Below the pieces are notes generated by a model, which ran no database searches, was not told the origin of the DNA, and saw nothing but the letters and a program-made list of their open reading frames with translations. A stretch of DNA of 45,901 nt. Origin: Oscillospiraceae bacterium (GTDB lineage Bacteria > Bacillota > Clostridia > Oscillospirales > Oscillospiraceae). The translations under genes were made by a program, and so were the position numbers. The stretch covers positions 1 through 45,901 of the forward strand of contig JAFSEW010000031.1 in the NCBI GenBank assembly GCA_017435525.1, in the 5' to 3' direction. Of this stretch, positions 29,004 to 38,585 are shown in pieces (the stretch's first letter is position 1; each line of letters starts with the position of its first letter).

Positions 29004-29062
29004 ACGGGATGTAGTATGAGAAGTGTACCCTGCTTGCAGGAAGATTATATGGAGTGAAACTT

Positions 29063-29890
29063 ATGAAATATGAAAGACGTTCCCCCCGGGAGCAGGAAAA
29101 GCGTTATCCCCGGGAAGACAAGCGCCGTTACGCCGACCCCGAACCTGAAGAAAACGAAGGCCAGATTGAGGGCCGCAATGCCCTGACCGAGGCCCTGCGC
29201 AGCGGACGCACCATTGATAAGGTGTTTGTTGCTGCCGGCGATACTGACCGTTCTTTGCAGCGGCTGGCAGCTCAGGCCAAGGAAGCCGGTGCCGTGGTTG
29301 TCCCTGTGGACCGCCGGAAGCTGGATGCCATGAGCACCAGCCATTCCCATCAGGGTGTCATTGCCCTGGTTGCCGCCAGAGAATACTTCTCTCTGGACGA
29401 CATTCTGGAGGAGGCCGCATCCCGGGGTGAAAATGCCCTGATCGTAATTTGCGATGAGCTGTCCGATCCCCACAACCTGGGTGCCATCCTGCGCAGCGCC
29501 GAATGTGCAGGTGCCCACGGCGTGATCATTCCCAAGCGCCGCAGTGTGGGCCTGACTGCCGTGGTAGCCAAGGCTTCCGCCGGTGCCGTGGAATACATGA
29601 AGGTGGCCCGTGTCACCAATATCACTGCCGCCATTCAGGAGCTGAAGGAGAAAGGTGTCTGGATTTTCGGTACCGCAGCCGAAGGCTCCATCCCCATGTA
29701 CGATGCCGACCTGAAGGGTCCGGCTGCCATTGTCATCGGCAACGAAGGCGACGGCATGAGCCGTCTGGTTCGCGAAAGCTGTGATGTGACGGTGCACATT
29801 CCCATGAAGGGCAGAATTTCTTCCCTCAACGCATCCAACGCCGCATCCATCTTACTGTATGAAGCTGTGCGTCAGCGCAGCGGGAGGTAA
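29063..29890 (+). CDS. rlmB: 23S rRNA 2'-O-methyltransferase, RlmB/SpoU family
   Basis: Encodes 275 aa. ATG 29063 is preceded by GGAG 8 nt upstream. A charged N-terminal extension (about 1-35) precedes the substrate-binding domain (IEGRNALTEALRSGRTIDKVFVA). The SPOUT methyltransferase core has DELSDPHNLGAILRSAE, IVIGNEGDGMSRLVRE and PMKGRISSLNASNAASILLYE, the three SpoU motifs that form the knotted SAM site. RlmB methylates G2251 of 23S rRNA; closely related enzymes methylate other sites, so the exact position is likely but not certain. The downstream membrane protein starts 2 nt after its stop, so they share a transcript. Confidence 0.93.
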   Translation: MKYERRSPREQEKRYPREDKRRYADPEPEENEGQIEGRNALTEALRSGRTIDKVFVAAGDTDRSLQRLAAQAKEAGAVVVPVDRRKLDAMSTSHSHQGVIALVAAREYFSLDDILEEAASRGENALIVICDELSDPHNLGAILRSAECAGAHGVIIPKRRSVGLTAVVAKASAGAVEYMKVARVTNITAAIQELKEKGVWIFGTAAEGSIPMYDADLKGPAAIVIGNEGDGMSRLVRESCDVTVHIPMKGRISSLNASNAASILLYEAVRQRSGR

Positions 29891-29892
29891 CT

Positions 29893-31950
29893 ATGAACCC
29901 CAATGATGAATTGCTGGAGGGTCTGCCCGCGGATTTGCCGGAAGAAGCGGATACCAGCCTGAGTCTGGACGATATTCTGAAGGAATTTTCCCCGGAAGAC
30001 GCTGCGCCGCCGGAAGCTGAGCCCATCCCGGATGCCGAGACCGAACCTGCTGCACAGGAAGCCTCCGGCGATACTCTCCGGATAGAGCTTCCTTCCAAGG
30101 AACCTGCCGCCGAAGTTACCGGCGATACGGTTCGGTTTGAGCCCGTGGGCGAACAGGCTGAAGAGGCGCCCCCCCAGGCTGAAAAGCCTAAGTTCCAGAA
30201 AAAAGAACCCTTTACCGAAGGCTGGGAGCCGGATTATGAGCAGCCCATCGGCGAGTATGTGCCGCCGCAGCCCATTATCTTCCATCCCCGCTCCCGGCTG
30301 CGGGAACTGAAGCGCAAGCTGGTGGCCGGTCCCGAAAAGCGCTACTATGATCTTACGGAGATCGGTTTCGGCAGAATCCAGGCTGCCATCTTTATCAGCA
30401 TCCTGATTGTTCTGTTTTCCGCTTGTGTCACGGTGCTGTATGCCTGCGGCATGGTCCCGGCGAGCCGGATCAAGCTGATGGTGTTTCTGCAGTTCCTTTC
30501 CATGCTGGTTTCCGCCCTTCTGGGCTGCTATCAGATGCTGGACGGCGTGACAGATCTGTTCAAGCTGCGCTTCAGCCTGAACACCATGCTCCTGATTACC
30601 TTCGCCGCCTGCTTTGCCGACGGTATTCTGGGTCTGCGGGAATTCCGCGTTCCCTGCTGCGCAGCCTTCAGCCTTCATGTGACCATGAGCCTGCTCAGCG
30701 CCTATCAGCGCCGCCAGACAGAGCTGTGGCAGATGGACACCATGCGCAAAGCCACCCACCTGGACAGCATTGTACGCACCCCTGCGTATCACGACGGCAA
30801 TGCCGGTCTGCTCCGGGGTGAGGGCCAGGTGGAAGATTTCATGGACAATTATGCCGCCACCTCCGGTCCGGAAAAGGCGCTGCACACCTACGCATTTCTG
30901 GCAACGCTGGCCAGCGTCTGCATCAGCGTTGTGGCAGGTTTGCTGCACAGCGATGTTTCCTTTGCCGTACAGGTGCTCAGCGTGACTATGCTGGTCAGCG
31001 TGCCGGTTACCGCGTTTATTTCCTTCTCCCGCCCCATGGCCATTCTGGAGCGCCGGCTGCACAAGCTGGGCACTGTGCTCTGCGGCTGGCAGGGTGTGAA
31101 GCGCATGGCCGGCAAAAAAGTATTCTTCCCGGTCAGCCATAAGGACCTGTTCCCTGCCGGTTCCTGCAAGATGAACGGTGTCAAATTCTATGGCAGCCGG
31201 GACCCCGATCAGGTAGTCGCCTACAGCACCGCCCTGATTCTGGCAGACGGCAGCGGCCTGGGCAGTCTGTTTGAGCAGCTGCTCAGCAGCCGCAACGGTC
31301 GTCACTATGATGCCATGAATTACCGGGCTTACCCCAACGGCGGCATCGGCGCCGAGGTCTGTCAGGAGCCTGTGCTCATGGGCAGCCTGGCCTTCCTGCA
31401 GGAGATGGGTGTGGAAATTCCCGAAGGCATCAATGTGAACCATGCCATCTACACTGCTGTGGACGGCGAACTGTGCGGTGTCTTTGCCATCACTTACAAC
31501 CGGGCTTATTCCGTGGCTGCCGGTTTGGGTACTCTGTGCAGCTACCGGCGGGTGCGCCCTGTGCTGGTCAGCTGTGATTTCATCCTCACCGAGAAGTTTA
31601 TGAAAGATCTGTTCGGCATCAACCCCCGCAGGTTTTTCTTCCCGGAGCGTGAAGTGCGGCAGCAGCTGCAGGCCAAGGCACTTCCCGAAGACACCACCGC
31701 TGCGGCGCTGATTACCACAGAAGGTCTGACACCCTTTGCCTACGCGGTTACCGGTGCCCGGGCCATCCGCACAGCTGCCATCATTGGCACCGCCGTGCAT
31801 ATCATCGGCGGCATTCTGGGTCTGCTGATTATGCTGGCCCTGGCTGTGCTGGGGGAATCTGCCTTGCTGACTCCCGCGAATCTTCTGGCATTCGAATTGG
31901 TTTGGCTGGTTCCCGGCCTGCTGATCAGCGAATGGACAAGAGCTGTATAA
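29893..31950 (+). CDS. Catalytically dead P1B-type ATPase-like membrane protein (pseudoenzyme)
   Basis: Encodes 685 aa. Residues 1-135 are acidic and Pro/Glu/Ala-rich. Eight hydrophobic segments (about 160-185, 192-215, 228-247, 251-270, 331-351, 357-378, 626-650, 655-682) follow the P1B ATPase plan. The soluble loop at 435-580 aligns by eye with a P-type N/P region: VVAYSTALILADGSGLGSLF, PVLMGSLAFLQEMGVEIPE, AIYTAVDGELCGVFAI, then RPVLVSCD. The essential residues are gone: where DKTGT should stand the protein reads FFPVSHKDL (411-419), TGD reads SCD, there is no TGE loop, no HP, no GDGxND and no CPC. It is intact and in frame, so it looks like a kept pseudoenzyme. Function unknown; it shares a transcript with rlmB. 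Confidence 0.62.
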   Translation: MNPNDELLEGLPADLPEEADTSLSLDDILKEFSPEDAAPPEAEPIPDAETEPAAQEASGDTLRIELPSKEPAAEVTGDTVRFEPVGEQAEEAPPQAEKPKFQKKEPFTEGWEPDYEQPIGEYVPPQPIIFHPRSRLRELKRKLVAGPEKRYYDLTEIGFGRIQAAIFISILIVLFSACVTVLYACGMVPASRIKLMVFLQFLSMLVSALLGCYQMLDGVTDLFKLRFSLNTMLLITFAACFADGILGLREFRVPCCAAFSLHVTMSLLSAYQRRQTELWQMDTMRKATHLDSIVRTPAYHDGNAGLLRGEGQVEDFMDNYAATSGPEKALHTYAFLATLASVCISVVAGLLHSDVSFAVQVLSVTMLVSVPVTAFISFSRPMAILERRLHKLGTVLCGWQGVKRMAGKKVFFPVSHKDLFPAGSCKMNGVKFYGSRDPDQVVAYSTALILADGSGLGSLFEQLLSSRNGRHYDAMNYRAYPNGGIGAEVCQEPVLMGSLAFLQEMGVEIPEGINVNHAIYTAVDGELCGVFAITYNRAYSVAAGLGTLCSYRRVRPVLVSCDFILTEKFMKDLFGINPRRFFFPEREVRQQLQAKALPEDTTAAALITTEGLTPFAYAVTGARAIRTAAIIGTAVHIIGGILGLLIMLALAVLGESALLTPANLLAFELVWLVPGLLISEWTRAV

Positions 31951-33411: not shown

Positions 33412-34842
33412 TTACAGCAGTTCTTTGAGCAGGGCCTGACCGTCTGCGATAATCTGTTCGGCAACGCCGCCCTGATATCTGGAGGATCTGGCCTCGTAGC
33501 CGCCCTCATCAAAGGCACTTCTCATGGGGTAGTAACCCTCAGAGCCGTTGGTCAGTGCCATAGGCAGAATGCAGCGGTAGCCTTCGGTCTTTTTCAGTTC
33601 TCTGCCGATATCGGTGAAGGGTTCACCGGGAATACCGCAGAAACCGATGGGGCCGATCTTCAGGCCGGTCAGGGGCAATTGGAAGAAGTCCGGGCCGTTT
33701 TCCAGCTTGCACATACGCACAGCCTCAGCAACCACGGTGGTCAGCTCCATGGCGGTGTAGGGGATCAGATCATCCCGGCCTGCATCATGCAGTTCCTTGT
33801 ACTTGTGTGCCAGGGGAAGCTGCTCCGGCTTTGCCTTGTTGGCAGGTACCGTGACAACCTTTTCCATAACACGCAGCTCATCCACATCCACATACTCCAC
33901 CTTGTCATACACCTGCAGAATGGTGCCGCACAGAGCGCGGCCCACAAACCGTGCCATACCGTCCGACTTCATTTCGTTGTCGAAGGAAATCAGGGTGTCG
34001 TTCATGTCACCGCCGCAGGGATTCACATGGGTGCTGCCCACATCGCCCTCACAGCCGTTCAGGAACACGCACTTGACATCAGGAATGCATGCTTCAAAGG
34101 TACGGGCCATCCAACCGGGCCAGTCGGGAGAAATCTGATCCAGGTTGATGCAGTCGGCATGCAGGCCGTAGTTCATCAGCACAATGGTATCGGCATTTTC
34201 CCGGTCGAAACGAATCACATTCACCTGCTGATCCAATGTACCGATGGGGTAATCAATATTGGGATCGTTGATGGGAGGACAGGTCATGGTAGAGCCGTCC
34301 TTCATCTTGTAGCGGCGGATATACGCCACTCTCTCAGGTGCCTGACCGACACAGAAGCCCATCTTTGCAGCTTTCAGATCTGCCACAGCATAGGTAACCG
34401 CGTCACACAGCTTCTCACCCAGGAATTCCGCATACTCGTTGACCTTCCTGGCATCCGCCTCGAAATGATCGTCCAGCTTTGTATGAGGGCCGGTATGGGT
34501 GTGGGTGCTGTGAAGAATGATATTTTCAAATGGAACGCCGGTCTGCTCATGGATCTTCCGGCGGTACGCTCTGCATTCCGCAGCAGACAGGCCGCAGTTA
34601 TCCACGCTGATCAGAGCCACGCAGCCGGAAGCGTCATTGCGCTGAGCGGCTACATACCGTCCGGTATCAGGATTATACTTCTGGCATTCTACGGTTTTCT
34701 CATCCATTGCAAACACAACGGCATTGGCATAGATGTGATCCAGAATGCCGCTGGAGAATCTGGGCACATAATATCCCCGAACAGGAATTCCATGCTTGGG
34801 GTCAATGTTCACTCTGGAAAAACCCACTCGTAACTGCTTCAT
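33412..34842 (-). CDS. Neutral/alkaline ceramidase-like protein (second, divergent copy)
   Basis: Encodes 476 aa. ATG 34842 is preceded by GGGAGG 8 nt upstream. The start RVGFSRVNIDPKHGIPVRGYY, the LISVDNCG strand and HSTHTHTGPH (114-120) match the ceramidase N-terminal domain and its zinc site. NGCEGDVGSTHVNP corresponds to a later conserved block. It has no signal peptide. It differs widely from the protein at 11325-12839, so this is not a recent duplication. Its neighbours are a dipeptidase gene upstream and an MFS gene downstream; import and cleavage of an N-acylated compound is a guess. I see no clear promoter in the 117-bp gap before it. Confidence 0.75.
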   Translation of the reverse strand: MKQLRVGFSRVNIDPKHGIPVRGYYVPRFSSGILDHIYANAVVFAMDEKTVECQKYNPDTGRYVAAQRNDASGCVALISVDNCGLSAAECRAYRRKIHEQTGVPFENIILHSTHTHTGPHTKLDDHFEADARKVNEYAEFLGEKLCDAVTYAVADLKAAKMGFCVGQAPERVAYIRRYKMKDGSTMTCPPINDPNIDYPIGTLDQQVNVIRFDRENADTIVLMNYGLHADCINLDQISPDWPGWMARTFEACIPDVKCVFLNGCEGDVGSTHVNPCGGDMNDTLISFDNEMKSDGMARFVGRALCGTILQVYDKVEYVDVDELRVMEKVVTVPANKAKPEQLPLAHKYKELHDAGRDDLIPYTAMELTTVVAEAVRMCKLENGPDFFQLPLTGLKIGPIGFCGIPGEPFTDIGRELKKTEGYRCILPMALTNGSEGYYPMRSAFDEGGYEARSSRYQGGVAEQIIADGQALLKELL

Positions 34843-36611: not shown

Positions 36612-36995
36612 ATGGATATCATGTTAAGCAATTCATCCGGCGAGCCGATCTATCAGCAGATCGTCACCCAGATCAAGGGTCATATTATGAGCGGTACGCT
36701 TGCGGCGGGGGACGCCCTGCCTTCCATGCGGCTGCTGGCCCAGCAGCTGCGCATCAGCGTCATTACCACCAAGCGGGCCTACGAAGAACTAGAGCGGGAT
36801 GGCTTCATTGAGAATTTTACCGGCAGAGGCTGTTTTGTCAGGCAGCAGAACCCGGAGTTCCTGCGGGAGGAAACCATCCGTCAGACGGAGGAACTGCTGC
36901 GCAAAGCCTGCGAAAGGGCGAAGCTCGGCAGCCTGACCCTGGAAGAAATGAAGGAAATGCTGGAACTGATGTATGGAGGAGATACGGATGCCTGA
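36612..36995 (+). CDS. GntR-family regulator, YtrA subfamily
   Basis: Encodes 127 aa. The winged helix domain fills about residues 1-75: PIYQQIVTQIKGHIMSGTLAAGD, LPSMRLLAQQLRISVITTKRAYEELERDGFI, GRGCFV. A short C-terminal helix (about 85-125) serves for dimerisation; there is no ligand domain of the FadR or HutC type. This short form is YtrA, which represses ABC transporter operons, in Bacillus in response to cell-wall antibiotics. ATG 36612 lies 5-6 nt after GAGGTG. The ABC ATPase start overlaps its end by 8 nt. Confidence 0.93.
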   Translation: MDIMLSNSSGEPIYQQIVTQIKGHIMSGTLAAGDALPSMRLLAQQLRISVITTKRAYEELERDGFIENFTGRGCFVRQQNPEFLREETIRQTEELLRKACERAKLGSLTLEEMKEMLELMYGGDTDA

Positions 36996-37866
36996 TTACG
37001 AAAATGCCATTGAAATCAAGGACTTGACTAAGAAATATGACGGATTCACCCTGGATTCCATTCGTTTCGCTGTCCCAAAGGGCTGCATTATGGGCTTTAT
37101 CGGTCAGAACGGCGCGGGCAAGACCACCACGATCCGGGCTATGCTGAACATCATTCAGACCGATGGCGGCACCATCAATATGCTGGGTCTGGATCACATC
37201 AAAGACGAGTACGCCATCAAGGAGCAGATTGCCGCAGTCTTTGACGAGCTGCCCTTCCATGAGAGTTTCACCGCCAATCAGGTGAATACCATGTTCAAGG
37301 GGCTTTACGGAAACTGGAACGAGGAGCAGTTTTTTGCCTATCTGGACCGTTTCAGCCTGCCCCGGAAAAAGAAGCTGAAAAAGTTCTCCAAGGGCATGAA
37401 AATGAAGCTGCAAATCGCCACTGCCCTGTCCCATGGAGCCAAGCTGCTGATCATGGACGAGGCTACCACAGGTCTTGACCCGGTGGTGCGCAATGAGATT
37501 CTGGATATTTTCCGGGAGTACATTCAGGACGAGAATAACAGCATCCTGATGTCCAGCCACATCACCAGCGATCTGGAAAAGATTGCCGACTGTGTCACTT
37601 TCATCGATAAAGGCAAGATCCTGCTGACGGGCTTCAAGGACGAGATTCTGGAACACCACGCGGTTTTGAAATGCACCAAAGCAGATTTCAAAGCCATCCC
37701 CGCCGGGGACTACATCAGCGCCCGGATAAATGACTTTGGGGCCGAATTGATGGTGGCGGATATTTCTGCCGCCAAAAGGCAGTATCCCGACTTCACCTTC
37801 GACCGCACTACCCTGGAAGAGATCATGCTCTTCTATGTCAATCAGGGGAAGAAGGTGTGGCAGTGA
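36988..37866 (+). CDS. ABC transporter ATP-binding protein (YtrB-like)
   Basis: Encodes 292 aa. ATG 36988 is chosen because GGAGGAG lies 7 nt upstream and inside the regulator gene; a start at 36973 lacks a ribosome site. Walker A GQNGAGKTTT (about 39-48), signature KFSKGMKMKLQIATAL and Walker B LLIMDEATTGLD, then a SSHITSD switch. The C-terminal 70 residues are those seen in exporters of the ABC-2 type. It works with the two ABC-2 permeases encoded just downstream, presumably to export or relieve a membrane-active compound. Confidence 0.94.
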   Translation: MPDYENAIEIKDLTKKYDGFTLDSIRFAVPKGCIMGFIGQNGAGKTTTIRAMLNIIQTDGGTINMLGLDHIKDEYAIKEQIAAVFDELPFHESFTANQVNTMFKGLYGNWNEEQFFAYLDRFSLPRKKKLKKFSKGMKMKLQIATALSHGAKLLIMDEATTGLDPVVRNEILDIFREYIQDENNSILMSSHITSDLEKIADCVTFIDKGKILLTGFKDEILEHHAVLKCTKADFKAIPAGDYISARINDFGAELMVADISAAKRQYPDFTFDRTTLEEIMLFYVNQGKKVWQ

Positions 37867-38585
37867 GGAAGAAGGCTTCTTTTCCGGCACTGCTGTACCG
37901 TGAGCTGCTCCTGTGCCGAAAGTCACTGATGACCTATATGGTTTCAACGCTGATTTTTACCATGATGCCGATTCTTGTGATTCTCAGCCTGCGCTATGGC
38001 AATCTGGCTATGCTGCCGGAATATATCGTAGCGGATATCCGGGCCAACAATGACCTGATGCTGACGCTGTATGCGGTGATCTGCCCCAGTATGCTGGTAA
38101 TGGCCGTTGCGGAATCCGCTGTTTTCGATACCCAAATCAAATGGGACCGCTTCCGCAGAAGCACGCCTGTGAAGCCTGCCCGGATGGCCCTTGCCAAGTA
38201 TGCGCTGTTTGTGATCCTGCTGCTTGCGTCTGTGGTGATTTCCATTGCCGTGATGGTGCTGTGCCATGGACTGCTGGGGACACCTGTGCTGAAAACAGAT
38301 ATTGCTGTCATACTGGCAATCATCACGCTGACTACTTTGATGTGCGTGCTGTCGCAGGTGTTCATCATGCTGTTTCGCAGCGTGGACAAGGGTATGTTGG
38401 CAATGATTGGCTGTATAGCGGCGGTCATTTTTCTGCTGCCTGAGAAATGGAAAGCAAATCTTTCCTTTGACCGGATGCTCAGAGCCGCGGAAGCTCTGTT
38501 ACCTCTGACGCCTGTCGTCCTCATGGGCATCCTGCTTCTTGGCGTCGTGCTGACCACAGTCATCTATGCAAGGAGGGAGAAATAA
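37863..38585 (+). CDS. ABC-2 type permease 1
   Basis: Encodes 240 aa. GTG 37863 is preceded by AAGG at 7 nt and overlaps the ATPase stop (GTGA); an alternative GTG at 37857 is too close to that site. Six hydrophobic segments are visible (about 20-40, 57-78, 103-125, 131-160, 165-190, 205-233), with a KWDRFRRSTPVKP cytoplasmic loop typical of the ABC-2 fold. It is coupled to the next gene by a one-base overlap (TAATG). Confidence 0.85.
   Translation: MRKKASFPALLYRELLLCRKSLMTYMVSTLIFTMMPILVILSLRYGNLAMLPEYIVADIRANNDLMLTLYAVICPSMLVMAVAESAVFDTQIKWDRFRRSTPVKPARMALAKYALFVILLLASVVISIAVMVLCHGLLGTPVLKTDIAVILAIITLTTLMCVLSQVFIMLFRSVDKGMLAMIGCIAAVIFLLPEKWKANLSFDRMLRAAEALLPLTPVVLMGILLLGVVLTTVIYARREK

Follow-up and report, generated by a model that had tools for sequence, protein, structure and literature searches.

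An order-wide gene behind rlmB predicted to encode a P1B-ATPase-derived pseudoenzyme

The gene at positions 29893..31950 (+) of the window (the whole 45,901-nucleotide stretch of Oscillospiraceae DNA analysed here) encodes a 685-aa protein that is, with near certainty, a pseudoenzyme derived from a P1B-type ATPase. Across its family the gene was retained in single copy and linked to rlmB, and the motifs for phosphorylation, dephosphorylation, Mg binding, ATP binding (the His) and metal binding were lost. Our best overall explanation, held with moderate confidence, is an ancient, order-wide P1B pseudoenzyme acting as a membrane scaffold or adaptor. The analysis extends the initial annotation of this gene from a single protein to an order-wide, nearly core gene with a signature of its own.

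The gene, its family and its neighbours

The ORF starts with ATG, is intact throughout, and begins 2 nt after the TAA stop (29888-29890) of rlmB (29054..29890, +), the upstream neighbour coding for a 23S rRNA methyltransferase (TIGR00186 match, E 3.1e-71). A candidate ribosome-binding sequence, GGGAGG, lies within the 3' end of rlmB at 29882..29887 (+). Both the position directly behind rlmB and the unbroken frame, as initially annotated, were confirmed by this reading. Searched alone, the 685-aa protein had no match in Pfam, PHROGs or PDB, and its sole NCBIfam match (E 0.076) was to an unrelated glycosyltransferase model; the second-best match within its own genome reached only E 0.149. Two other long ORFs of the window, at 33412-34842 (-) and 36838-37947 (-), had no Pfam match at E<=1e-5.

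We examined how widely relatives of the gene occur. Among genomes of the same family (own genome included) a relative was found at E<=1e-5 in 278 of 300, and in 185 of the 188 that are near-complete. An earlier profile made from near relatives only (A1) missed members, matching 111 of 147 order genomes, and profile A2, made from 38 diverse members of the pseudoenzyme family, was used instead. At E<=1e-40, A2 matched 276 of 295 genomes of the order, including 219 of 225 near-complete ones; 19 had no match at this threshold, 6 of them near-complete. All 9 order genomes in a class sample, again with the own genome included, matched A2 at E<=2.0e-87, and none of the 236 genomes outside the order did so at E<=1e-40, where the best value was 4.6e-38. 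The phylum sample, read at E<=1e-36, gave matches in 3/3 order genomes and in 0/296 genomes outside the order, at least 7 of the latter being present also in the class sample. From the 222 genomes outside the order with a match, 21 loci were fetched (L144-L164), and these are ordinary pumps: DKTGT, CPC and GDGxND were present in 21/21 and TGES in 20/21, the exception being an ORF of only 503 aa.

Neighbouring genes were compared in 117 member loci, which were picked once ORFs carrying DKTGT had been removed and some of which are one place fetched twice; before that filter there were 58 ORFs without DKTGT and 10 with it, the 10 being canonical pumps. A same-strand rlmB homologue lay upstream in 104 of the 117 loci, and in the other 13 the upstream flank was missing or shorter than 200 nt. 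The gap from rlmB to the first start codon was <=60 nt in 94 of the 104, some of the other 10 being mismeasured because of a broken match. Downstream, an EF-G-like gene on the same strand was found in 41 of the 109 loci with flank, spread over several families, and was absent at the window locus; the copy at L034:7641-9779 carries Pfam EF-G domains. This suggests an ancestral order of rlmB, pseudoenzyme gene and EF-G-like gene.

P1B descent and the catalytic motifs

The HMM comparison gave a divided answer to the initial claim of a P1B scaffold: the window protein alone matches no family, whereas the family profile matches P1B ATPases. A same-family profile of 60 sequences (the window protein and 59 loci) matched 10 canonical pump ORFs having DKTGT, CPC, TGES and GDGxND at E 2.5e-27 to 3.2e-8, values that refer to a small ORF set; two of these pumps are from the own genome (L124, 4.2e-13; L122, 1.4e-11). 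When A2 was compared with PDB, the matches included LpCopA (1.4e-30), HMA4 (1.2e-20), archaeal AfCopA (3.9e-18) and ZntA (1.8e-8), and every one of the 45 sequences with E<=0.01 was a P-type ATPase. Canonical P1B pumps (31/31) scored 56.7 to 187.1 bits with A2, and 341 reversed or shuffled pump versions, used as controls, scored <=3.8 bits. Among the 38 members, the NCBIfam P1B model TIGR01525 matched 17 (best 1.6e-12) and the NCBIfam CopA model 15 (best 5e-17), the window protein being in neither set; Pfam PF00702 (HAD) matched only 2 and PF00122 (E1-E2_ATPase) none. At the level of sequence, these profile comparisons establish P1B descent for the P/N region. In a tree of 36 members and 31 pumps the members lay together beyond a single branch (SH-aLRT 100). 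With six branches flagged as long and a midpoint root, this tree leaves the parent P1B subtype open; CopA ranked best in both the PDB and the NCBIfam comparisons.

Hydropathy averaged over 109 relatives gave eight TM-like peaks (residues 168-182, 199-214, 236-246, 254-259, 335-347, 366-373, 636-653 and 664-674), whose layout, read from hydropathy only, is the 4+2+2 order of P1B pumps, in line with the eight membrane segments initially annotated. The first four segments, equivalent to MA, MB, M1 and M2, map by hydropathy to 30379..30717 (+). They are followed by a shrunken A-domain region that aligns without TGES (30718..30882, +), by M3-M4 with VPV (residues 370-372) in place of CPC (30883..31032, +), by the P and N domain region (31045..31692, +), and by M5-M6 with the family-specific Trp671 (31780..31932, +). 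Within the membrane part, conservation among the 109 members stays below 62% for every polar or metal-binding residue; the top conserved polar position is Asn663 (56%), and Asp243 and Asp213 stand at 43% and 42%. Such low conservation speaks against metal transport, as far as can be judged from the alignment.

Motif names for P1B pumps and the motif rules of HAD proteins are used here partly as general background. Within the translation we read SHKDLFP at the place of DKTGT and VSCDF, with SCD for TGD, as well as the loop motifs MGS...FLQEMGVEIPE and YTAVDGELCGVFAI, all of which had been quoted for this protein before. For motif counts, 109 members were aligned together with 31 pumps. None of the 109 has TGES, the HP His or GDGxND, the GDGxND segment being gapped in 107 to 109 of them, depending on the column. 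Intact CPC, the only P1B M4 motif checked, was likewise found in 0/109; a single Cys of it remains in 8 and the Pro of its place in 81. DKTGT occurred in none of the 117 member loci (a set filtered beforehand for ORFs lacking DKTGT), and the window protein is not a one-off mutant among its homologues. The pump Asp column lies in a gapless register, with Asp in 8/109 members and a replacement in 101/109. The annotation that every catalytic motif had been lost stands for DKTGT, TGE, HP, CPC and GDGxND; it does not stand for the TGD Asp (D562 here), kept in 100/109, or for the second Gly of the N-domain GxG (G484 here), kept in 108/109, and G497 is also kept in the window protein. Taken with P1B ancestry supported by profiles against controls, the absence of DKTGT from the member loci upholds the pseudoenzyme reading.

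At the DKTGT place the family carries a new signature, DxD[LIV]FP, with both Asp in 85/109 members; the window protein has HKDLFP there (residues 416-421; 31138..31155, +). Among 17 close relatives, window protein included, the first signature Asp is changed to His, Gly, Phe or Pro in 8, and the second Asp is present in 17/17. Weighted conservation was 0.96 for F420, 0.91 for P421, and 0.98 for both Y535 and W671; all 31 pumps have Asp where the family has Y535. According to a paper on HMA6/HMA8 (PMC5089723), adenine in P1B N domains is contacted by the HP His and a conserved beta3 Gly. Since the HP His is gone, canonical ATP binding by the pseudoenzyme family is predicted to be unlikely.

Other degenerate P1B copies were met with in the survey. 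At E<=1e-60 a second degenerate relative was found in 5/300 genomes, all five from genus g21; the G020 copy (L198:3535-5424, -; G020:C9) reads NKTGT for DKTGT, as does that of G181, and the others read NKSGT (G231) and SLSGT (G117) or are unclear by pattern (G270). A tail motif similar by pattern to that of the pseudoenzyme family (see below) is present in 3/5 of these copies (G020, G231, G270). TGES, CPC and GDGxND are missing from the G020 copy, which keeps SDHP, TGDN and PQDK, is still matched by Pfam HAD (E 1.9e-12), and stands behind a gene read by eye as aldolase-like instead of behind rlmB. Judged from these sequence features, the g21 copy is probably of separate, younger origin and seems to be less far along the same route. 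Two P1B relatives from genus g98, L205 (G219) and L208 (G297), are by pattern without TGES or CPC and have GDGASD and GDGDAD, respectively, for GDGxND; L205 keeps DKTGT and L208 reads SKTGT. The g98 copies suggest repeated motif loss in this family.

The acidic tail and the possible roles of the protein

The first 135 residues of the window protein hold 34 Asp/Glu and 10 Lys/Arg, in agreement with the acidic N-terminal extension initially annotated, and such a tail is common to the family among the members listed. From composition and relatives the tail was drawn as residues 1-162 (29893..30378, +; boundary approximate), and would be cytosolic. Ahead of the membrane part, with the boundary cut by script, family tails have a median length of about 220 aa and are 23% acidic. 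A loose pattern around FSLEDILxEF, represented here by SLSLDDILKEF (residues 22-32; 29956..29988, +), was found in 71 of 100 tails and was absent from 29; 200 shuffles gave a mean of 0.76 and a maximum of 4, in a test that is partly circular, the pattern having been drawn from the same tails. Searched at E<=0.1 with a tail-motif model (A3), 59 order genomes, the own one among them, gave matches in 25, and 20 of the 28 places matched lie by coordinates within the pseudoenzyme gene; outside the order there were weaker matches in 5/58 genomes (E 0.017 to 0.098). The tail motif is close to specific to the pseudoenzyme, though A3 misses some members.

In the own genome A3 found only two places at E<=10, the pseudoenzyme itself and an RlmB segment (E 0.003). 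This segment, YFSLDDILEEA at window positions 29378-29428, resembles the tail motif. Mimicry of RlmB by the motif was considered and set aside as coincidence: no other RlmB match was recognised among the 28 places in 59 order genomes, a few of these places being unassigned. The tails of the window protein (29893-30189) and of relatives L032-L042 also contain repeated DTVRL/DTIRL/DTVRF-like units, which resemble phospho-Thr sites whose +3 residue is hydrophobic.

Retained in this form, the pseudoenzyme probably has a non-pumping membrane job. The pump cycle could not be expected to run; the protein would serve as a scaffold or adaptor in the membrane, its long acidic tail may dock a cytosolic partner via the FSLEDILxEF-like motif, and the degenerate P/N head may be a ligand- or protein-binding module. 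We give the scaffold or adaptor mechanism about an even chance; of the "sensor, scaffold or channel" roles suggested in the initial annotation, each is a role that we infer. A wider joint reading is offered tentatively, and we would sooner doubt it than rely upon it: a heavy-metal pump was converted once, early in the history of the order, to a core non-pumping membrane hub, in which the tail might recruit a partner via FSLEDILxEF and the head might read a ligand at DxD[LIV]FP/Tyr535, perhaps linking ribosome maintenance, with rlmB and the EF-G-like gene, to the state of the membrane or to nutrient status; a second such conversion would have begun in one genus.

That the gene is a decaying pseudogene or a mutant copy could be argued from the internal stops seen in the assemblies of a few members (G320, G788, G210). 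The family data contradict this, and we assign it negligible probability: the window frame is intact, the gene is single-copy and retained in nearly all of the near-complete genomes (219/225), the family has specifically conserved residues, and dN/dS (Nei-Gojobori) was about 0.1 in relatives, ranging from 0.057 to 0.157 in the best 14 of 32 candidate close pairs. The window gene is in none of these pairs, its nearest relatives among the loci fetched being 57% identical to it, and two of the loci, L081 and L101, are the same place; purifying selection is shown for close pairs of its relatives. Low dN/dS in the close pairs, together with near-universal retention, argues strongly against decay, as the initial annotation had held. 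An unrelated membrane protein with a chance likeness to P-type ATPases would agree with the failure of the window protein alone to find a single-sequence match, yet it is very improbable in the face of the A2 matches against shuffled controls and of PDB matches that were P-type ATPases without exception (45/45).

The remaining explanations grant P1B descent and differ in the activity proposed. An active phosphatase or phosphotransferase, with DKTGT turned into a HAD-like DxD, is quite unlikely in our estimate; DxD does stand at the motif I place in 85/109 members and the TGD Asp in 100/109, but the pump's own Asp is replaced in 101/109 in gapless register, Mg-binding GDGxND is found in 0/109, and 8/17 close relatives, the window protein among them, have lost the first Asp (the second being kept in 17/17). 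We also regard as unlikely the reuse of the P1B membrane domain as a passive channel or a transporter that needs no ATP: no membrane Cys, His, Met, Asp or Glu reaches 62% conservation, against which can be set the eight TM-like segments, the Pro at the CPC place in 81/109, and the partial conservation of Asn663 (56%), Asp243 (43%) and Asp213 (42%). Equally unlikely is that the protein regulates a real P1B ATPase as its partner, for instance within a mixed oligomer. The own genome does have two canonical P1B pumps with all tested motifs (L122, L124), but the linkage seen was to rlmB, plus the EF-G-like gene in 41/109 loci.

Comparison with known systems

To our knowledge, few P-type ATPase pseudoenzymes have been described, and among the literature matches listed, all of them open-licence papers, there was no bacterial one. 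As a single-copy gene in most near-complete genomes of the order, with a window member unmatched in Pfam and NCBIfam, this gene likely has an unnamed core function, and its family is a natural test of the use of a pump scaffold without its cycle.

Human TMEM94/ERMA is a P-type-like protein that is reported to lack TGES (PMC12134183, PMC13322241); ERMA has GSSANL in place of GDGVND (PMC13322241). Its activity is disputed, one paper being against it (PMC12134183) and the other, whose group reported ATP-dependent Mg uptake by ERMA, being for it (PMC13322241), and this dispute means that motif loss alone is no proof of inactivity. Compared by published description only, the pseudoenzyme is like TMEM94/ERMA in having a P-type-like scaffold without TGES and (for ERMA) GDGVND; it is unlike TMEM94/ERMA in that the latter is an animal protein with ten TM helices and a DKQGI loop that keeps the Asp.

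The g21 NKTGT copy is like the pseudoenzyme in being a degenerate P1B relative with a similar N-terminal motif in 3/5 copies, whereas the G020 copy differs in its retained SDHP, TGDN and PQDK and in its place behind an aldolase-like gene. The likeness to HAD phosphatases lies in DxD, their motif I, at the equivalent place in most relatives; unlike them, the family has no motif IV acidic pair, its DxD is followed by [LIV]FP, and the window protein reads HxD. With P1B ATPases (CopA, ZntA; TIGR01525, PRK10671) the pseudoenzyme shares the 4+2+2 TM-like order, a homologous P/N region, the second GxG Gly, the N-domain VG glycine and the TGD Asp; unlike them, it is without DKTGT, TGES, CPC, HP and GDGxND, its A-domain region is shrunk, and it has a long acidic motif-bearing tail together with DxD[LIV]FP, Tyr535 and Trp671.
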